Shown here: positions 10,525-18,762 of the stretch, piece after piece
How positions within the stretch are numbered: position 1 is the stretch's first letter
How the letters are laid out: every line of letters starts with the position of its first letter
DNA from: Aromatoleum toluolicum
Lineage (GTDB): Bacteria > Pseudomonadota > Gammaproteobacteria > Burkholderiales > Rhodocyclaceae
Assembly: GCF_012911005.2 (NCBI RefSeq)
Contig: NZ_WTVS01000043.1
Span: forward strand, 1 to 50,094
Direction: 5' to 3'
DNA: 50,094 nt
The notes under the pieces: model-generated
The model's database searches: none
Seen by the model: the letters and a program-made list of their open reading frames with translations, nothing else
Told to the model about the DNA's origin: nothing
Made by a program: the position numbers and the translations under genes

Positions 10525-12765
10525 CTAATGGACTCCCTTGACCTCGTCGCCGCCCGCCAGGTCAAGCGGACGCCCCTGGTCGGGCTGGCGATAATCGCAC
10601 ACGCCGTCGGGAAAGATCTGTTCGAGTTGTGACTGGTACGGACGCATGTCCACCGGCCCGTACACGCCACCGTCGAGCGCGGCCGACACGGTCTGCAAGG
10701 CGCACTTGAAGCGGTCGCCGGTGATCCCGTCGCCGGCAACCATGCGCGAGTTGCTGTAGATCGGATAGGCGCGCATGCAGGCGCCCGTGGGACGCTGGTT
10801 CCAGTTGCCGTCCCAGACCCGGTCGCCCTTGAACATGACCCGGCCGCGAGCGTCGAAACAGCGGTCGCTGGCCGTCCCGGGGCGAACCTGCGCCCACGAC
10901 AGCTCGGGACGCGCGCGTTTCGCGCGCAGCCACTGGTCGATCGCGGCGAAGGCCCGCGGTGTCGGGTCGTAGGCCTTGTCACTCACCCAGATCGCCTGAT
11001 TCCCCGCATCGCCCTGGGCCGCGATCATCCGCGCCCGTGCGGAGAACGATGCCGCCGTGTGGTGCATGTCCAGCTCGGCTTCGAGGTACAGGCGCTCGTC
11101 GATGACCGGAATGTCGATGCGACCGAGGAAGACCTGGCCCGAACGATACGCAGCTGCGATCGCTTCGAGGTCGCCTGCGAAGCGCGGCGCCGGACGAGTT
11201 CGCTCGGCGCCGAGGTTGATGTTGTGGGCGCTCCAGGGTGAAAAGGCGCTCAGCTCGCTCTCGCCGCCGTCGATCAGCCAATAATGCTCGCGCTGCATGT
11301 CTGCAGGCGGCTTCCAGCTGCCGATACGGGCGTTCAGCCGCAGGAACTGCTTCGGGGTGATCCGCTTGTTCTGCAGCGCCCCGAGGCCGTATTGCACGCC
11401 CACGTTGTCCCACGGAATGCGCGCGTAGCCCCGCGCGTCGGTGCCGAAGAAACGCTTCAGATCCTCGAAGTAACTCCAGCGCACCTGCTCGAAAACGTCG
11501 CGCGTTAGATGCGATTCGAAATGCGCGAACCGTGGATTCAGGACGAGCGGCGTAAGGCCTCGCCAGCCCACCACGCATTCCGTGTCGCCTTTACGTTCGG
11601 GCACCGATTCGCCGCGCATCATGAAGGCCACGCGGGTCGTGACCTCGATCTTCATCAGACCGCCCGAACTTTCATGGCGATTGCTGGCATTGAAGCCTTC
11701 GATCCAGCGTCGGTGTTCGGCCTTGCGCCAGGCGCGATTGTTGCCGTCTGTGACGTCGAAGTAATACTCGAGCAGTTCGCAGTCGAACACCGGGATCGTC
11801 TGCGTGATCATGTCCGGGTACGAATACTGGGCAATCGCCGCGTCGATTAGACCCGGGCGGTTCTGCGCGAGGAGATATTGCTGGATCGCGCCGCCCGAAG
11901 CGCCCACGCCCACCGTGTAGTCGGGCTCGCCGTACAGCGCGACGAACTGCTGTTTGACGCGCAGTGCGGTGTCCTCCGCGAGCCAGATGTCGAAGTGGTT
12001 CCGGCTCGTCGTTCCGGTCGATGCGACGACCGCGTAGCCCTGCGCAAGCTGTTCGCGGCGGTCGTCGAGAACGGCCTTCACGCTCGCCCTGCCCTGTCGA
12101 TGACCGATTCCTACGCCTCCATAGAACTGGTAGATCAGGCGCCGGTTCCAGCGGTCGGCGGCGGGAGCGTCGATGAGCTCGCGCGCGCCCTTGAGCGCCG
12201 CGATGAGGTAGATGAAGCGATTGATCGTACCCATCTCGACACGCACGATGAAGGGTACGCGGGCGCCATTGACGGTGATCGTATCGACGTCCTCCGACTC
12301 GCCGTTCCAACGTGCAAAATGCTTCGCGCCCACCGGCTTGTAGAAGTACCAGGCTTTCGTCGGCGCCAGACAGTCCTTGCTGAAGGCCGCTGACTTGCGC
12401 GTGCCGTCCGTGGCGGCTTCGGTGGAATCGACCGGCGTCCCTATCCCCTCGGAATTGTCCGCGAGTGGAACCCCCAGGCCCGACTTTGCGGTGTCGCAGA
12501 TGAAGGGATATTGCTTCGGCCCGGCAAAAAGGGGCTCGGCCGGGCCGACCTGGCCGAGCATGATGGGAAAGCGGAAGATTTCGGCCGGCCGTTCGAGGCG
12601 CGAGGGATGCGGTCCCGCATAGGGTTCCGTGGGCGCCCCGGCGTCATAGCCCGGCGGCAGGCCGACGACTTGGCGCTGGCCAAGTTGTCCGCGCCCGTCA
12701 GACTGGCCCCCGACGGCGAATCCGACAAGGATCAGCCCCGGCCACAGCCATCTTCTTCCCTTCAT
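10525..12765 (-). CDS. Large exported alpha/beta-hydrolase-like protein (DUF6351-like)
   Basis: This 746-residue protein begins with KGRRWLWPGLILVGFAVGG, a probable signal peptide or anchor. A nucleophile-elbow-like motif, VGVGASGGAIQQYLLAQ (GxSxG), in the first half points to a serine hydrolase fold. It is followed by a long region rich in aromatic residues and several well-spaced Cys, fitting a secreted enzyme. I associate the overall architecture with the DUF6351 family, whose substrate is not established. The ATG at 12765 (AGGGTG upstream) is preferred to a GTG at 12774. An esterase or polymer depolymerase role is possible but unproven. The gene is divergent from the JAMM peptidase gene. 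Confidence 0.7.
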   Translation of the reverse strand: MKGRRWLWPGLILVGFAVGGQSDGRGQLGQRQVVGLPPGYDAGAPTEPYAGPHPSRLERPAEIFRFPIMLGQVGPAEPLFAGPKQYPFICDTAKSGLGVPLADNSEGIGTPVDSTEAATDGTRKSAAFSKDCLAPTKAWYFYKPVGAKHFARWNGESEDVDTITVNGARVPFIVRVEMGTINRFIYLIAALKGARELIDAPAADRWNRRLIYQFYGGVGIGHRQGRASVKAVLDDRREQLAQGYAVVASTGTTSRNHFDIWLAEDTALRVKQQFVALYGEPDYTVGVGASGGAIQQYLLAQNRPGLIDAAIAQYSYPDMITQTIPVFDCELLEYYFDVTDGNNRAWRKAEHRRWIEGFNASNRHESSGGLMKIEVTTRVAFMMRGESVPERKGDTECVVGWRGLTPLVLNPRFAHFESHLTRDVFEQVRWSYFEDLKRFFGTDARGYARIPWDNVGVQYGLGALQNKRITPKQFLRLNARIGSWKPPADMQREHYWLIDGGESELSAFSPWSAHNINLGAERTRPAPRFAGDLEAIAAAYRSGQVFLGRIDIPVIDERLYLEAELDMHHTAASFSARARMIAAQGDAGNQAIWVSDKAYDPTPRAFAAIDQWLRAKRARPELSWAQVRPGTASDRCFDARGRVMFKGDRVWDGNWNQRPTGACMRAYPIYSNSRMVAGDGITGDRFKCALQTVSAALDGGVYGPVDMRPYQSQLEQIFPDGVCDYRQPDQGRPLDLAGGDEVKGVH

Positions 12766-12978
12766 TATTGGCACCCTGCTGCGTATCCCGTCCGGCGGAG
12801 CCGTCCATGATTTATGTATAGATCACGGCTGGCCGGCTGCAACGCACGACGCCTCGGAACGAGCACCCGATGGAAATTTGCGTCTTCGGGGCCGCTTATG
12901 CGAACTCCGGCCGCCCGATCGCATTCCAAAGTAGACGAATTTAGTCGGTTATTGGATTTTGTGACCAAGGGCTCGCCC

Positions 12979-13395
12979 ATGACGACCTTGCGACTGCCGT
13001 CCCCTCTGCGCGACACCATCATTGCTGCGGCGCAGACGGGCTATCCCGACGAGGTGTGCGGACTCCTGCTGGGGCGCCAGGACCCGGATGTCGTGACCGT
13101 GTGCGCGGTCCATCCCGCTCGCAACGTGCACCCGGATCGCACCGCGGACCGTTTCCTGATCGAGCCGCAGGATTATCTCGACGCCGAATACGCGGCCGCC
13201 GCCGATGGGCTGCAGGTGGTCGGCGTGTGGCATTCCCATCCCGACCATCCGCCCCGGCCGTCCGATACCGATCGCGAATTCGCGTGGGCGGGCTGGTCCT
13301 ATCCGATCGTCTCGGTCAACGGCGGCGTCGCCACCGAGTTGCGATCGTGGCGGTTGGAGGGCGAAACGTTCGGCGAAGAGGAGGTGCTGCCATGA
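12979..13395 (+). CDS. JAMM/Mov34 metallopeptidase (Mec+-like)
   Basis: This 138-residue stand-alone JAMM domain is a zinc isopeptidase/peptidase. All motif residues are present: Glu25 (DEVCGLLLG), then His85-x-His87 and, after seven residues, Ser95-x2-Asp98 in VWHSHPDHPPRPSDTD. Bacterial relatives (Mec+, QbsD, HcyD) cleave amino acids or tails from the C-terminus of ThiS-like sulfur carriers. The start at 12979 is chosen because the fold begins here; the upstream extension is unlike the family. The stop overlaps the next start by four bases (ATGA), so the peptidase and the carrier fusion protein are translationally coupled. Confidence 0.92.
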   Translation: MTTLRLPSPLRDTIIAAAQTGYPDEVCGLLLGRQDPDVVTVCAVHPARNVHPDRTADRFLIEPQDYLDAEYAAAADGLQVVGVWHSHPDHPPRPSDTDREFAWAGWSYPIVSVNGGVATELRSWRLEGETFGEEEVLP

Positions 13396-14843
13396 GCCGC
13401 GTCATCGTTCGCATTCCGACTCCGTTGCGTTCCTACACCGGCGGCGCCGACGAAGTCGAGGTCGAGGCCGCCACGGTCGGCGAGGCGCTGCACGCCCTCG
13501 CCCGTCGCCACGAAGGACTGCTGTCACGCGTATGTGCGGCGGATGGCTCGCTGCGTCCCTTCGTCAATGTCTACCTCGGCGCGGACAACGTGCGCGATCT
13601 GGGCGGACTCGCCGCCGCCCTGCCGCATGACGGCGCCGTGCTCGCGATCGTTCCGGCCGTCGCCGGTGGCGCCGGCGGCGCGCGCGAGCGACGGATCGCG
13701 GAACTCAAGGCGAGCGTGCCCGAGGTCAGTCCGCGCGAAGCCTTCGCCCAGCAGGCGCAGGGCGCCGCGCTGATCGACGTGCGCGAGGCGGACGAGATCG
13801 CCCAGGGCAGTCCCCGCGACGCATTCCGCCTCGGTCGCGGCTTTCTCGAACTGCGCGTGGAGGAGGCCATCCCCGATACCGACCGGCCGCTGCTGGTGAT
13901 GTGCGGCGGAGGTGTCCGCTCGCTGTTTGCGGCCGAGGACCTGCAGCGGCTCGGCTATCGCAAGGTCGCGTCTGTGGCGGGCGGCTTCTCGCGCTGGAAG
14001 GCCGAAGGCCTGCCCTTCGAGACCCCGCGCGGCCTCGATCCGCACGCGCGCGAACGCTATGCGCGGCACCTGACGATGCCGGAAGTCGGCGAAGCCGGAC
14101 AGCGGCGCCTGCTGGACAGCCGCGTGCTGCTGATAGGCGCCGGCGGTCTCGGTTCGCCGGCGGCCCTGTACCTCGCCGCGGCCGGCGTCGGCACGCTGGG
14201 CATCGTCGACCACGACGTCGTCGATCGCTCCAACCTGCAGCGGCAGATCCTGCACAACGACGAGCGCATCGGCCAGCGCAAGGTCGACTCCGCGCGCCGC
14301 ACGCTGCAGGGTCTCAACCCGTCCGTGAATGTCGCGACCTACGCCGAGCGCCTGACCTCGGCCAACGTCGAACGCATCCTCGAAGGCTACGAGGTGGTCG
14401 TGGACGGGTCGGACAACTTCCCCACCCGCTACCTCGTCAACGACGCCTGCGTGCGCCTGCAGATCCCTTGCGTACATGGCTCGGTGTACCGCTTCGAAGG
14501 GCAGGTAACGGTGTTCTGGCCGCGTTACCCGGCGCGCCGCGGCCCGTGCTATCGCTGTCTCTATCCCGAACCGCCCCCCGCCGAGTTCGCACCCTCGTGC
14601 GCCGACGCGGGCGTGCTCGGCGTGCTGCCCGGCGTCGTGGGGCTGCTCGAAGCGGTCGAGACGATCAAGCTGCTGCTGGATCTGGGCGACCCGCTGGTCG
14701 GGCGGCTGCTGCATTACGACGCCTTGCGCGCACGCTTCGACGAATACCGCCTCGCCGCGAATCCCGACTGCGCCCTGTGCGCCGAAGGGCGTGCGTTCCC
14801 GGGCTACGTCGACTACGAAGCGTTCTGCGCGACGGCCGCGTAA
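13392..14843 (+). CDS. ThiS/MoaD-like carrier–rhodanese–ThiF/MoeB fusion protein
   Basis: This 483-residue protein joins three sulfur-transfer modules. Residues 1-~96 are a ubiquitin-like ThiS/MoaD domain ending in two Ala-Gly-Gly sequences (91-93, 94-96). Residues ~113-212 are a rhodanese domain with active-site Cys171 in MCGGGVRS. Residues ~215-470 are a ThiF/MoeB-type activating enzyme, starting ERYARHLTMPEVG, with ATP-binding GAGGLGS (249-255), zinc Cys pairs 386/389 and 460/463, and Cys403. The enzyme part should adenylate the carrier's C-terminal Gly and the rhodanese should supply sulfur. In a fusion, however, the di-glycine is internal, so the carrier must be released first, plausibly by the coupled JAMM peptidase. 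A frameshift artefact is unlikely because the frame is continuous. Confidence 0.93.
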   Translation: MSRVIVRIPTPLRSYTGGADEVEVEAATVGEALHALARRHEGLLSRVCAADGSLRPFVNVYLGADNVRDLGGLAAALPHDGAVLAIVPAVAGGAGGARERRIAELKASVPEVSPREAFAQQAQGAALIDVREADEIAQGSPRDAFRLGRGFLELRVEEAIPDTDRPLLVMCGGGVRSLFAAEDLQRLGYRKVASVAGGFSRWKAEGLPFETPRGLDPHARERYARHLTMPEVGEAGQRRLLDSRVLLIGAGGLGSPAALYLAAAGVGTLGIVDHDVVDRSNLQRQILHNDERIGQRKVDSARRTLQGLNPSVNVATYAERLTSANVERILEGYEVVVDGSDNFPTRYLVNDACVRLQIPCVHGSVYRFEGQVTVFWPRYPARRGPCYRCLYPEPPPAEFAPSCADAGVLGVLPGVVGLLEAVETIKLLLDLGDPLVGRLLHYDALRARFDEYRLAANPDCALCAEGRAFPGYVDYEAFCATAA

Positions 14844-14866
14844 GCGTGCCGCAATGGAAGACGGTC

Positions 14867-15805
14867 ATGGCAGCGATCCCGATCCGCGAATCCGCCCTGC
14901 TCTCCGGCGTCGGACATGTCCCGCTGGTCGAGATCCACGCCGCCCGCGAGCTGGCGCCGGCTTGCCGCGTGTTCGCCACCCTCGAAGGCGTGAATCCCGG
15001 TGGCTCGATCAAGGACCGCCCGGTCGTGCGCATGTTGATGAAGGCCCTTCAGACCGGCCGCCTCGATGGCGGACGGCGGCTGCTCGATTCGTCTTCCGGC
15101 AATGCGGGAATCTCGTACGCCCTGTACGGCGCGGCGCTGGGCGTGCCGGTCACCCTGGTCGTGCCGGGCAATGCCAGCCGCGAACGCCTCGACCGCATCC
15201 GCGCCAGCGGCGCCGAACTGATCCTCACCGATCCGCTGGAAGGCTACGACTTCGCGGTAGCGGAAGCACGCCGCCTCGCGCGCGATCACCCCGAGCGCTA
15301 CTGGTACAGCAACCAGTATTCGAACCCGGAGAACTGGCGCGCACATTACGACACCACTGGCCTGGAACTGCTGCGGGGCGTCGTGGCCAGCACCGGGAAA
15401 CCGCCGGATGCCTTCGTTGCTGGCATCGGCACCGGCGGCACGCTCACGGGCGTCGCGCGCCGGCTCAAGGAAGCCCATCCGGCCACGATCGTGATCGCGG
15501 CGATCCCCGACGAATTCCCCGGCATCGAGGGCCTCAAGCCGCTCGGTCATCCGGGCGACATGGTGCCGGCGATTCTCGACGAGAGCCTGATCGACCGTCG
15601 CCTGCCGGTGCGCATGGAAGACGCGATCCCGATGTGCCGGAAGCTCGCGAAGACCGGCCTGTTCGTCGGCCCGTCGGCCGGTGCGCTGGTGCATGTCGCA
15701 TGCCAGGTCGCGGCCGAGGACGGCTTGCGCTGCATCGCGACGGTGCTGCCCGACACCGGCGAGCGCTATGTGTCGACCGGACTCTGGGCTTGCGAGGACG
15801 GGTGA
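14867..15805 (+). CDS. cysM: Cysteine synthase B-like PLP enzyme
   Basis: This 312-residue fold-type II PLP enzyme has the cofactor lysine Lys49 in VNPGGSIKDRP, the substrate loop SSSGNAGISYA and the phosphate-binding glycine loop GIGTGGTLTG. It would form cysteine from O-acetylserine or O-phosphoserine. Its place right behind the carrier/rhodanese/activating-enzyme fusion suggests that it uses a protein thiocarboxylate as sulfur donor, as mycobacterial CysM does with CysO. That donor choice is inference from context. The ATG at 14867 is used; a GTG at 14846 would add seven residues. Confidence 0.9.
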   Translation: MAAIPIRESALLSGVGHVPLVEIHAARELAPACRVFATLEGVNPGGSIKDRPVVRMLMKALQTGRLDGGRRLLDSSSGNAGISYALYGAALGVPVTLVVPGNASRERLDRIRASGAELILTDPLEGYDFAVAEARRLARDHPERYWYSNQYSNPENWRAHYDTTGLELLRGVVASTGKPPDAFVAGIGTGGTLTGVARRLKEAHPATIVIAAIPDEFPGIEGLKPLGHPGDMVPAILDESLIDRRLPVRMEDAIPMCRKLAKTGLFVGPSAGALVHVACQVAAEDGLRCIATVLPDTGERYVSTGLWACEDG

Positions 15806-15852: not shown

Positions 15853-16512
15853 ATGGCACTGCGACTAGGCGACGATGCACCGGACTTCACGGCGGAAACG
15901 ACGCAGGGAACGATCCGGTTTCACGAGTGGATCGGGGATGGGTGGGCGATCCTGTTCTCGCATCCGAAGGACTTCACCCCCGTCTGCACCACGGAACTGG
16001 GTTATATGGCGGGACTCAAGGAGGAATTCGACAAGCGCAATACCAAGATCATCGGCCTGAGCGTGGACAGCGTCAGCGACCACGACCGCTGGTCGAAGGA
16101 TATCGAGGAGACTCAGGGGCACCGCGTCAATTACCCGCTGATCGGGGATCCGGAGCTCAAGGTGGCCAAGCTCTACGACATGATCCACCCGAACGCCAGC
16201 GGCAGCGCGCAGGACCGCACGGCGCAGGACAACCTGACGGTGCGCTCGGTGTTCGTGGTCGGGCCGGACAAGAAGATCAAGCTGATGCTCACCTACCCCA
16301 TGAGCACCGGCCGCAACTTCGATGAAGTGCTGCGCGTGCTGGACTCGATCCAGCTCACGGCCAAGTATAAGGTGGCGACGCCGGTCAACTGGAAGGCGGG
16401 CGAGGACGTGATCATCGTGCCGTCGGTTTCCGACGCGGAAGCGAAGACCCGCTTCCCGGACGGCTGGAAGGCTCCCAAGCCCTACCTGCGCATCGTTCCT
16501 CAGCCCAAGTAG
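15853..16512 (+). CDS. 1-Cys peroxiredoxin (Prx6-like)
   Basis: This 219-residue peroxidase reduces hydrogen and alkyl peroxides. The peroxidatic Cys45 sits in the motif DFTPVCTTE, and the long C-terminal domain (from ~150, with VNWKAGEDVIIVPSV) is typical of the Prx6 group. No resolving cysteine is evident. A good ribosome site (GGAGGTG) precedes the ATG at 15853. It lies 47 bases after cysM and may be cotranscribed with the sulfur-transfer genes, which would fit thiol or redox metabolism. Confidence 0.95.
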   Translation: MALRLGDDAPDFTAETTQGTIRFHEWIGDGWAILFSHPKDFTPVCTTELGYMAGLKEEFDKRNTKIIGLSVDSVSDHDRWSKDIEETQGHRVNYPLIGDPELKVAKLYDMIHPNASGSAQDRTAQDNLTVRSVFVVGPDKKIKLMLTYPMSTGRNFDEVLRVLDSIQLTAKYKVATPVNWKAGEDVIIVPSVSDAEAKTRFPDGWKAPKPYLRIVPQPK

Positions 16513-17199: not shown

Positions 17200-17820
17200 G
17201 TGTCGAGATCCTTCTTGCGCCGCCTTGCATCGGCCGCCGTTGTCGCAGCCGCGCTGAGCACTGCGGGCTGCGGCTACAACGATTTCCAGCGCCTTGACGA
17301 GCAAAGCAAGGCTGCCTGGGCCGAGGTCCTGAACCAGTATCAGCGACGCGCCGACCTGATTCCCAACCTCGTCGCGACCGTCAAGGGCGAGGCGAACTTT
17401 GAACAGGAAACGCTCACACGGGTGATCGAGGCACGCGCGAAAGCGACCTCGATCCAGCTCACCCCCGAAATGCTCGCCGACCCGCAGGCGATGGAACGCT
17501 TCCAGCAGGCTCAGGGCCAGTTGGGCAGCGCCCTGTCGCGCCTGCTCGTCGTCGCCGAGAATTACCCGAACCTGAAGGCCAACCAGGCTTTCCAGGATCT
17601 GCGCGTGCAGCTCGAAGGCACCGAGAACCGCATCACCGTTGCGCGCAACGGCTACATCAAGACCGTGCAGGAATACAACGTCCTTGCCCGCAGCTTTCCG
17701 ACGAATCTGACGGCGATGGTGTTCAGCTACGCACCCAAGGCAGGATTCACCGTCACGAACGAGCAGGAGATCTCGCGGCCCCCGGCAGTGGAATTCGGCG
17801 GTGGCGCACCCAAGCGCTGA
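17200..17820 (+). CDS. LemA-family lipoprotein
   Basis: This 206-residue protein has a lipoprotein signal ending in the lipobox LSTAGC (Cys25), followed by YNDFQRLDEQSKAAWAEV and the LemA hallmark NQYQRRADLIPNLVATVKG. The rest is a helical bundle with NRITVARNGYI and a YNVLARSFPTNL segment. It is anchored in the membrane and its molecular role is not settled. The GTG start at 17200 follows GGGAG. It is the first gene of a lemA-TPM-TPM cluster, a common bacterial arrangement. Confidence 0.93.
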   Translation: MSRSFLRRLASAAVVAAALSTAGCGYNDFQRLDEQSKAAWAEVLNQYQRRADLIPNLVATVKGEANFEQETLTRVIEARAKATSIQLTPEMLADPQAMERFQQAQGQLGSALSRLLVVAENYPNLKANQAFQDLRVQLEGTENRITVARNGYIKTVQEYNVLARSFPTNLTAMVFSYAPKAGFTVTNEQEISRPPAVEFGGGAPKR

Positions 17821-17841
17821 CGTGCTCAGTCCCCTGCCCTG

Positions 17842-18762
17842 ATGCCGGCCGTCGCCCGTCCCATGCTTGCGCTCGAATACGCCTTGCGCCTGGCGATGTG
17901 CGCCCTTGCACTGCTGCTGTGGCCGGGCGCCGCAAGCGCACAGGAACTGATCCCGGTTCCCCAGCTGACGGCACGCGTCATCGACCAGTCGGGAACGCTG
18001 TCGTCCGCCGAGCGGCAGGCGCTCGAAGACAAGCTCGCCCGATTCGAAACCGAGCGCGGCAGCCAGCTTGTCGTCCTGATCGTGCCGACGACGGCGCCTG
18101 AGGACATCGCCGCCTTCGCGTATCGCGTCGCGGCGGAGTGGAAGATCGGCCGGCGCGACGTCGGCGACGGACTCCTGTTGGTGGTCGCGAAGGATGACCG
18201 GCGCGTGCGCATCGAGGTCGCACGCGCGCTCGAAGGCGCGGTGCCGGATCTTGCCGCCTTCCACATCATCGACCGCGCCATCACGCCCGCCTTCCGCGAA
18301 GGCCGTTTCGCCGCAGGTATCGACGCCGGAGTCGAGGCGCTGATGGCACGCATCCGCGGCGAAAACCTCGCACTGCCCGAGCCTGAACCCGACGCCCGCG
18401 CCTCGCGCGGTTTCGGCTCGCTGCAGGACATCGCCGTCTTCCTCATGTTCGGCGTACCCATCGTCGGCGGCATGCTCTCTGCGGTCCTGGGACGCAAGCT
18501 CGGCGCACTGGCAACCGGAGGCGTCTTCGGTCTACTCGCGAAATTCCTGCTCGGCAGCTTCGTGCTGGGCATCATCGTCGCCGTCCTCGCCATCATTTTC
18601 GTCTTCGTGCTCGGCACCGGCGGCGGCGGACGCGGGGGCCGCGGCGGGCCCGGCGGACCGATCATCTTTGGCGGCGGAGGACGAGGCGGCTTCGGCGGCG
18701 GCGGTTTCGGCTCGGGTGGCGGCGGAAGTTTCGGCGGTGGAGGCGCGTCCGGGCGATGGTAG
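17842..18762 (+). CDS. TPM-domain membrane protein (YgcG-like)
   Basis: This 306-residue protein has a signal peptide (cleavage near ASAQ), then a TPM domain (~35-170) with VIDQSGTLSSAERQALEDKL and the DVGDGLLLVVAKDDRRVRIEV region. Two or three transmembrane helices (~195-265) follow, and the tail is very Gly-rich (GGGGRGG, FGGGGFGSGGG), as in the YgcG family. It sits 21 bases after the lemA-type gene, its usual partner. Exact function is unknown; related TPM domains have been linked to photosystem repair and acid phosphatase activity in plants. Confidence 0.9.
   Translation: MPAVARPMLALEYALRLAMCALALLLWPGAASAQELIPVPQLTARVIDQSGTLSSAERQALEDKLARFETERGSQLVVLIVPTTAPEDIAAFAYRVAAEWKIGRRDVGDGLLLVVAKDDRRVRIEVARALEGAVPDLAAFHIIDRAITPAFREGRFAAGIDAGVEALMARIRGENLALPEPEPDARASRGFGSLQDIAVFLMFGVPIVGGMLSAVLGRKLGALATGGVFGLLAKFLLGSFVLGIIVAVLAIIFVFVLGTGGGGRGGRGGPGGPIIFGGGGRGGFGGGGFGSGGGGSFGGGGASGRW

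Follow-up and report, generated by a model that had tools for sequence, protein, structure and literature searches.

Operons that unite a sulfur carrier with a JAMM peptidase have been described before. The survey of Iyer, Burroughs and Aravind (2006; PMC1779556, Table 1 row 4c) lists a kind composed of a ThiS/MoaD protein, a JAB peptidase, a rhodanese-fused E1 and a cysteine synthase, and its text proposes JAMM processing of carriers. A similar set of parts (a carrier, a JAMM peptidase, a cysteine synthase and an E1 that bears a rhodanese) forms the mycobacterial CysO/Mec+/CysM/MoeZR system as presented in PMC3227635. Release of a carrier from a fusion partner is likewise on record: DRJAMM cuts the MoaD-MoaE fusion DR2607 to a C-terminal Gly (PMC8832034), and MoaX works only once it has been cut after its diglycine, by a protease not named in that paper (PMC4326299).

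The locus considered here occupies positions 12979-15805 of a 50,094-nucleotide stretch from Aromatoleum toluolicum (GCF_012911005.2, contig NZ_WTVS01000043.1, positions 1 to 50,094, forward strand; hereafter the window), and all features given below lie on the plus strand. It encodes, in this order, a JAMM/Prok-JAB metallopeptidase of 138 residues (12979..13395; Pfam PF14464 Prok-JAB, E=5e-27), a ThiS/MoaD-rhodanese-ThiF fusion of 483 residues (13392..14843) and a cysteine-synthase-like PLP enzyme of 312 residues (14867..15805; Pfam PALP, E=1e-57). A 1-Cys peroxiredoxin gene identified by Pfam follows 47 bp downstream (15853..16512) and adjoins the operon in all nine other loci of the genus that were examined. 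The first-pass annotation had called the locus a coupled operon with a four-base gene overlap. The overlap is there, as an ATGA shared by the JAMM stop and the fusion start (13392..13395), and the description suits this pair of genes, whereas the fusion and PLP genes are separated by 23 bp without overlap. As in the type 4c operon, carrier, E1, JAB and cysteine synthase occur together and the E1 is fused to a rhodanese. The suspicion that similar fusions had been catalogued in surveys was correct for the kind of operon; the three-module chain itself is not listed in the sections of PMC1779556 consulted, figures aside.

Carrier, sulfur donor and activating enzyme do form a single chain, as first proposed, with Pfam matches to ThiS (residues 6-93), Rhodanese (121-205, E=3e-11) and ThiF (223-461, E=8e-82). 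The carrier module (residues 1-93; 13392..13670) is a beta-grasp domain of CysO/SAMP1 type: among the 60 matches listed, its residues 4-93 align with the solved ThiS/MoaD-type chains 4n6e_B (E=1e-14) and mycobacterial 3dwg_C (E=2e-12), which identifies it as CysO-like, and the SAMP1 model matches it with a score below its cut-off. A linker (residues 94-112; 13671..13727) leads to the rhodanese module (13752..14006), whose loop CGGGVRS contains Cys171, presumably the residue that acts in sulfur transfer. The ThiF/MoeB module (14058..14774) resembles the MoeB structure 1jw9_B (E=2e-54) and contains GAGGLGS at 249, CYRC at 386, Cys403 and a second CxxC motif, CALC, at 460-463; we assume that GAGGLGS, Cys403 and the CxxC pair have their customary roles. 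Together, residues 98-482 cover positions 3-386 of 387 of the rhodanese-ThiF MoeB model NF006444 (PRK08762) at 624.8 bits, against a cut-off of 449; that model has no carrier module, whereas the fusion has one in front. The domain order, initially put forward as the novelty, is therefore that of a curated family, in an operon kind catalogued in 2006.

Elsewhere in the genus, nine genomes encode the same in-frame chain (89-98% identity), as do three genomes of two other genera, which rules out an assembly error as its origin. Within the genus, pN/pS is 0.15 for the carrier, 0.18 for the linker, 0.15 for the rhodanese and 0.10 for the ThiF module; in 6 of 17 genus members no locus of this type was seen. 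Separate production of the rhodanese-ThiF half from an internal start was considered and found no support: the first Met past the diglycine sits at the rhodanese loop, and the GTG codon of Val109 is replaced by an Ile codon at three related loci (L008, L009 and L012). On plasmids, 36 records match the fusion at E<=1e-60, but no match spans as much as 80% of its length.

The carrier diglycine occupies residues 92-93 (13665..13670) and is internal, with 390 residues behind it. A carrier of the CysO/Mec+/CysM pathway ends at its diglycine as translated, which the fusion does not; an internal or blocked diglycine, as found here, is typical of JAMM-processed pro-carriers. Because the diglycine is internal, adenylation would be impossible until the chain is cut, and the 483-residue polypeptide, which the annotation had treated as the working form, would therefore have to be a precursor. 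The structural model places the diglycine in a segment predicted to be flexible, residues 90-95, one of only two with pLDDT below 50. This arrangement recurs in every carrier of this type that was aligned: 33 of 33 sequences (25 distinct end regions), fused or separate, possess GG followed by 1-394 residues, and the positions behind it are variable. By way of control, the eight other typical carriers of the same genome all end exactly at GG.

Across a betaproteobacterial group of several genera, all 18 loci compared share the order JAMM-carrier-rhodanese-ThiF-PLP enzyme, 13 of them fused and five split. The database check suggested by the annotation, for the three-module chain beside JAMM and a cysM-like gene, thus returned 13 fused loci including that of the window. 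In these 13 the carrier invariably ends in PAVAGG, while the residues after it differ between genera. Split operons encode the carrier as a separate protein, and each of the five keeps 2-19 residues after GG; masking of the diglycine persists in fused and split operons alike. Beyond this group, carrier-ThiF-rhodanese fusions with the junction right after GG, and with JAMM and PLP genes adjoining, are found in Elusimicrobia (L118) and Thermoplasmata (L119), and at a further locus (L126), again beside JAMM and PLP genes, a carrier is fused right after GG to another, putatively NIL-like domain. In the f79/f99 family the masked carrier has no adjoining JAMM.

Which enzyme might free the diglycine? 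The JAMM encoded next door has E25, H85, H87, S95 and D98, which we take to be the JAMM signature, so that the genome holds a peptidase of the kind expected for pro-carriers. Its nearest solved chain is 2kcq_A, and the desampylase model matches it with a score below its cut-off. The neighbouring JAMM probably cuts the carrier free after the diglycine.

The association extends well beyond this operon. In a first survey of 86 carriers, all 22 masked ones (11 in which ThiS is fused to ThiG, 10 with a short tail, and the carrier of the window, whose genome was included) belong to genomes with a JAMM, and all 27 carriers of JAMM-less genomes are unmasked. Counted by genome the result is 22/0/3/14, three of 25 JAMM genomes having no masked carrier (Fisher 5e-8); the genomes in the surveys are related, and such values therefore overstate independence. 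A second survey covered other phyla, in genomes reached via relatives of the operon's PLP enzyme, and 27 of the 29 carriers called masked again sit in JAMM genomes. Here eight carriers have a JAMM gene no more than 6 kb away, and all eight are masked (five also in the locus comparison, three new), whereas none of 56 unmasked carriers is so linked. Both surveys combined, 49 of 51 carriers called masked occur in genomes with a Prok-JAB JAMM; exceptions are a ThiS of genome G810 in which just one residue follows GG, and where no JAMM is found at E<=1e-6, and a carrier of G800 (L397) that was called masked and has no diglycine at all. Among the matches listed, ThiS-ThiG in-frame fusions are accompanied by a JAMM in 42 of 45 cases, versus 111 of 254 other genomes, and the three lacking a JAMM match come from genomes that are 57, 69 and 76% complete. 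These counts suggest that bacteria with blocked carriers usually keep a Prok-JAB JAMM.

How might the fused carrier become active? We consider it rather probable that the fusion is a pro-protein that passes through JAMM cleavage, thiocarboxylate formation, carrier-cysteine synthesis by the PLP enzyme and possibly JAMM hydrolysis. The JAMM encoded just upstream would cut after Gly93, a well-supported step that would yield a 93-residue carrier ending in GG and a rhodanese-MoeB enzyme starting at Ala94. Judging from the families involved, the ThiF module would then adenylate the carboxylate so exposed, and sulfane sulfur handed over by the rhodanese cysteine would give the carrier thiocarboxylate. 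The operon's PLP enzyme would join this thiocarboxylate to an activated serine, and the same JAMM may hydrolyse the resulting carrier-cysteine to cysteine, in the manner of mycobacterial Mec+, under conditions, perhaps oxidative, where free sulfide is unsuitable. The new content of this scheme would be its initial cleavage, which frees the masked diglycine: whether a fusion partner or a short tail does the masking, the carrier would depend on a JAMM. By extension, bacterial carriers may fall into free-ended and blocked ones, the latter (joined to their E1, to ThiG, to MoaE or to some further domain, or carrying a short cap) being pro-proteins that share one kind of maturase, a Prok-JAB JAMM whose gene often lies at a distance; we regard the chances of this generalisation as evenly balanced.

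Cysteine is a plausible, if weakly supported, end-product. The PLP enzyme, first named CysM and with Lys49 in GGSIKDRP presumably in its usual role, scores below the curated cut-offs for CysM (TIGR01138; 244.5 versus 394.2 bits), CysK (236.4 versus 350.95) and CysKM (262.7 versus 344.15), and two canonical cysteine synthases, with matches over cut-off, exist elsewhere in the genome. Within the DNA covered per locus, a JAMM or a window-type carrier accompanies 10 of 80 relatives of the enzyme, including 8 of the 18 best, and neither is seen at the other 70, ten of them among the 18 best. A protein-thiocarboxylate cysteine pathway, the annotation's central proposal, thus retains the clustering of its parts and the fit of the nearest relatives, but its PLP enzyme stands outside the curated CysM and CysK families.

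Other readings of the operon deserve weighing. The JAMM might be only a Mec+-like hydrolase of carrier-cysteine, with the fused carrier module a docking domain that is never released and another carrier of the genome as substrate. Mec+ is indeed described as the hydrolase of the CysO-cysteine adduct (PMC3227635), other carriers are present, and some ThiF proteins beside a separate ThiS bear N-terminal Ub-like domains (PMC1779556); yet we hold this to be unlikely, given that PAVAGG is retained whatever follows it, that the constraint on the carrier would be needless for a docking relic, and that split relatives still encode the carrier in the operon. Alternatively, the freed carrier could be joined to target proteins via the E1 and removed by the JAMM, in ubiquitin-like or SAMP-like fashion. 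Thioester-type E1 action and conjugation were predicted for JAB-linked E1 operons (PMC1779556, section 16), the pair HvJAMM1 and SAMP1 is an example (PMC4443979), and the sub-threshold SAMP1 and desampylase matches point the same way. The fixed presence of PLP enzyme and rhodanese module in the 18 loci, together with the lack of any reported E2 domain among six window proteins scanned with Pfam, nevertheless makes protein modification unlikely.

Sulfur might also be loaded for something other than bulk cysteine. In Mycetohabitans, the same rhodanese-ThiF type neighbours a MoaD/ThiS gene together with YcaO, TfuA and a RiPP precursor, and quinolobactin and PDTC clusters use an E1/carrier/JAB core (PMC1779556, section 12). 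Both would fit a thiocarboxylate made for a siderophore- or peptide-type product, in which the PLP enzyme performs a cysteine-like step. However, the few neighbours that were scanned, namely DUF6351, the peroxiredoxin and an M24 peptidase, gave no sign of a biosynthetic cluster, and we think such a specialised product quite improbable. Very doubtful, finally, is a molybdopterin or thiamine enzyme next to which the PLP gene lies by chance. NF006444 bears the name molybdopterin-synthase adenylyltransferase MoeB, and the ThiF module has the two CxxC motifs seen in MoeB-type proteins, but the PLP enzyme is part of the conserved order in 18 of 18 loci, Pfam reported no moa or thi protein besides the fusion among the six window proteins scanned, the genome has nine further ThiS-family matches and other ThiF/MoeB matches, and part of the genus shows no such locus.

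If the pro-protein reading is true, JAMM genes beside bacterial sulfur carriers acquire a plain, testable job, sequence alone would predict which carriers can take up sulfur only after a protease has acted, ThiS-ThiG fusions for thiamine among them, and what Iyer et al. suggested in 2006 becomes countable across genomes. If the wider generalisation holds as well, JAMM would serve as a common switch for sulfur transfer to thiamine, molybdopterin and cysteine, of which the window shows the extreme form, with carrier, sulfur donor and E1 freed from one chain 1:1.

Much of this has precedents, namely the operon kind (2006), the rhodanese-first MoeB family and JAMM cleavage of MoaD-MoaE; what our counts would add is to generalise the processing. 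In type 4c operons the rhodanese is C-terminal to the E1 (PMC1779556), whereas here it precedes ThiF and is itself preceded by the fused carrier. Mycobacteria have a separate carrier gene and an E1 with a C-terminal rhodanese, and their MoeZ/MoeZR mostly lacks the second CxxC and has NYRD as the first (PMC3227635), unlike the single chain described here with both motifs; their pathway also uses CysM, outside whose cut-off our PLP enzyme falls. DR2607 with DRJAMM, and MoaX, share with the fusion an internal diglycine that needs exposure by cleavage, but in both the carrier's partner is MoaE, the product-making subunit, whereas here it is the activating enzyme itself (PMC8832034, PMC4326299). 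Literature searches (ThiG-JAMM, CysO-JAMM and JAMM-rhodanese-CysO-thiocarboxylate) returned no paper on this architecture.

The three open reading frames of the locus lie where the first-pass annotation had placed them: a JAMM peptidase gene (12979-13395; Pfam Prok-JAB), a gene for a 483-residue fusion joining ThiS, Rhodanese and ThiF (Pfam) in a single chain (13392-14843), and a gene for a PLP enzyme (14867-15805; Pfam PALP). The JAMM and fusion genes adjoin and overlap, and a 1-Cys peroxiredoxin gene (15853-16512) comes next after the PLP gene. With 624.8 bits against a cut-off of 449, the rhodanese-ThiF half of the fusion is a member of curated family NF006444, and among the 60 solved chains shown, the carrier has ThiS/MoaD-type matches in 4n6e_B (E=1e-14) and the mycobacterial 3dwg_C (E=2e-12); the best solved-structure match of the JAMM protein is 2kcq_A. 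Divergent from the JAMM gene, on the minus strand, lies a gene for a DUF6351 tannase-like protein (10525-12774), present at six of the nine genus loci examined, the remaining three reaching only about 1.1 kb upstream of JAMM. Downstream on the plus strand, two putative LemA and TPM-domain ORFs (17200-18762) are kept at all three loci with longer flanks.

What the annotation overlooked is the internal position of the carrier's diglycine. By established chemistry, ThiF/MoeB-type enzymes adenylate the carrier on its free C-terminal carboxylate, which belongs to the second glycine (PMC3227635, PMC4326299). Because this glycine is residue 93 of 483 and not a free C-terminus, the fused carrier cannot be charged as translated. 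In an AlphaFold2 model of the fusion (13 sequences; mean pLDDT 83.6, pTM 0.65), only two segments fall under pLDDT 50, namely residues 90-95 around the diglycine and a ThiF loop with Cys403 (402-409); given the former, the diglycine site is predicted to be flexible.

The fusion is real and conserved. It occurs in full in 10 of 17 Aromatoleum genomes, the window's included, at 89-100% identity; one more (G010) carries a split version, and in six the best match is a separate ThiF-type gene. Over nine pairs, each with the window as partner, pN/pS was 0.15 for the carrier, 0.18 for the linker, 0.15 for rhodanese, 0.10 for ThiF and 0.21 for JAMM. At all nine other genus loci examined for linkage, JAMM, fusion, PLP and peroxiredoxin genes stand together. 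Elsewhere, a peroxiredoxin 70% identical lies upstream of JAMM in a betaproteobacterial MAG (L104); none was found in 6.5-7 kb at six other relatives (L072-L077) or in 10.9 kb of another MAG, L103. Outside the genus the fusion is rare: a carrier-rhodanese query against 399 genomes of the order gave matches in 7 (E<=1e-20), four fused (the window's, G156, G387 and G135), two split (G072 and G116) and one with rhodanese only, and among the 63 of 398 genomes matched at phylum level, carrier and rhodanese share one match in the window's genome only. Rhodanese-ThiF genes also occur on plasmids. That of Piscinibacter gummiphilus (L183, 4959-6128), 64% identical to the window's, is near DUF692 and carbamoyltransferase genes, without an annotated carrier. 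A Mycetohabitans rhizoxinica plasmid, pBRH01 (L184, 1-9083), carries a gene pair, MoaD/ThiS and rhodanese-ThiF of the window's type, beside YcaO, TfuA, Nif11-type RiPP precursor and LanM genes; the pair is a candidate source of sulfur for some peptide product.

Is blockage of the diglycine, that is, at least one residue after it, peculiar to fused carriers? Among 18 betaproteobacterial loci with the order JAMM, carrier, rhodanese-ThiF, PLP gene, 13 are fused and five split, and the diglycine is exposed in none. Separate carriers continue past it by 19 residues in G010, where the two glycine codons overlap an AGGAGG stretch ahead of the next gene's ATG, and by 17, 15, 12 and 2 residues in G116, G072, L103 and L104, respectively. 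In L103 (3751-3830), ATA replaces the rhodanese-ThiF ATG of relatives, and the two frames overlap. Separate planctomycete carriers (L113 and L114) extend 3 and 11 residues, with JAMM genes elsewhere in the genome; these relatives have two rhodanese modules ahead of ThiF (L113 3384-4952, L114 1544-3100). Carrier-ThiF-rhodanese fusions adjoin JAMM and PLP genes in Elusimicrobia (L118) and Thermoplasmata (L119), and a Syntrophaceae carrier (L126) is fused to a putative NIL-type-like domain in an operon also holding rhodanese-ThiF, JAMM and PLP genes. Thus, fusions of at least three makes share one point of joining.

In all 33 carriers lined up by similarity to the window's (25 distinct end regions), GG is followed by one residue or more, and all share the motif PxxAGG, by which the end was located with no row dropped; the eight positions after GG are variable (entropy 2.0-2.9 bits, with an end treated as one more symbol). 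Eight of the 33 belong to families f79 and f99, and no JAMM gene was found in the stretch fetched around them. These CysO-like carriers (L080-L087), near a CysK-like gene and a ThiF gene, end in GGC, GGS, GGR, GGG, GGRN or GGQRE. In four f79 genomes (G431, G439, G446, G465) a JAMM gene lies on the carrier's contig, 106-115 kb away.

Across genomes, blocked carriers go with JAMM. In the window's genome, eight of nine ThiS-family carriers (ten matches, one partial left out) end exactly at GG; the window's is the sole blocked one. A survey of 40 phylum genomes including this one, 39 with carriers, gave 86 carriers (92 matches, six short of the model's end left out). Of these, 22 were blocked, 11 as ThiS-ThiG fusions, 10 by a tail of one or two residues, and one being the window's; all 22 were in genomes with JAMM (Prok-JAB, E<=1e-10). 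The 14 genomes without JAMM had 27 carriers, every one unblocked. By genome, blocked carriers occurred in 22 with and 0 without JAMM, and only unblocked ones in 3 with and 14 without (Fisher 5e-8, kinship ignored). A second survey covered 36 genomes, from other phyla by their titles, out of the 80 whose loci had been retrieved via the PLP enzyme; 31 had carriers, 85 in total (87 matches, two partial left out). Here 27 of 29 carriers called blocked were in JAMM genomes (E<=1e-6). One of the other two has no diglycine (G800, L397); the true exception at this threshold has one cysteine after GGG (G810, L388). In JAMM-less genomes 27 of 29 carriers were called unblocked, against 29 of 56 where JAMM is present; by genome, carriers called blocked occurred in 15 with and 2 without JAMM, and only unblocked ones in 1 with and 13 without (Fisher 7e-6, kinship ignored). 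All 8 carriers lying no more than 6 kb from a JAMM gene were blocked, and none of the 56 unblocked carriers is that close to one; since five of the eight were loci already studied, with G788, G789 and G790 new, this survey is only partly independent.

A further count took ThiS-ThiG fusions, which carry an internal GGG (e.g., L277, L296-L302). Among the matches listed for 299 phylum genomes, 45 were in frame without internal stop (14 families); fusions with weaker scores may have escaped this listing, and the count leaves aside partial matches (among them G539, G527 and G535) as well as two matches with one internal stop, G513 and G531, both in JAMM genomes. JAMM was present in 42 of these 45 genomes versus 111 of 254 others (Fisher 7e-11, kinship ignored, two draws of 299 genomes taken as the same set); the three exceptions among the matches listed are 57, 69 and 76% complete. 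Possibly, thiamine synthesis in such genomes depends on JAMM.

Carrier processing as an idea is not new but that of Iyer et al., who predicted thioester-type action and conjugation for JAB-associated E1 enzymes (PMC1779556). As far as searches of open-licence PMC articles show, three things are new: the carrier-rhodanese-ThiF chain adjoining JAMM and PLP genes, the finding that separate carriers are blocked too, and the cross-genome counts tying blocked carriers to JAMM. The locus is ordinary in its parts; what is instructive is a carrier locked inside its own loading enzyme.

How might a locus with the anatomy, conservation and co-occurrence observed here work? Most likely, as we infer for every chemical step, JAMM would cut the fusion after Gly93, ThiF would adenylate the C-terminus thus freed, rhodanese Cys171 would provide the sulfur, and the PLP enzyme would react the resulting carrier thiocarboxylate with an activated serine; hydrolysis of the carrier-cysteine so formed may be a second task of JAMM. 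Cysteine as end-product is the weakest part of the scheme, because two cysteine-synthase matches over cut-off lie elsewhere in the genome, and because a JAMM gene or a carrier of the fusion's type occurs in the fetched DNA of only 10 of the 80 loci reached via the PLP enzyme (both in 7). In some of the rest (G788, G789), a carrier linked to JAMM occurs at another place in the genome. The PLP enzyme itself scores under the curated cut-offs of CysM, CysK and CysKM. For cutting at the carrier's glycine there are described precedents: DRJAMM cuts MoaD-MoaE so as to leave a C-terminal glycine, cPMP being detected in the DRJAMM mutant and not in wild type (PMC8832034), and in MoaX the cut falls between Gly82 and Ser83 and is reported as needed (PMC4326299). 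For the product, the precedent is the described system of CysO, CysM and Mec+ (PMC3227635).
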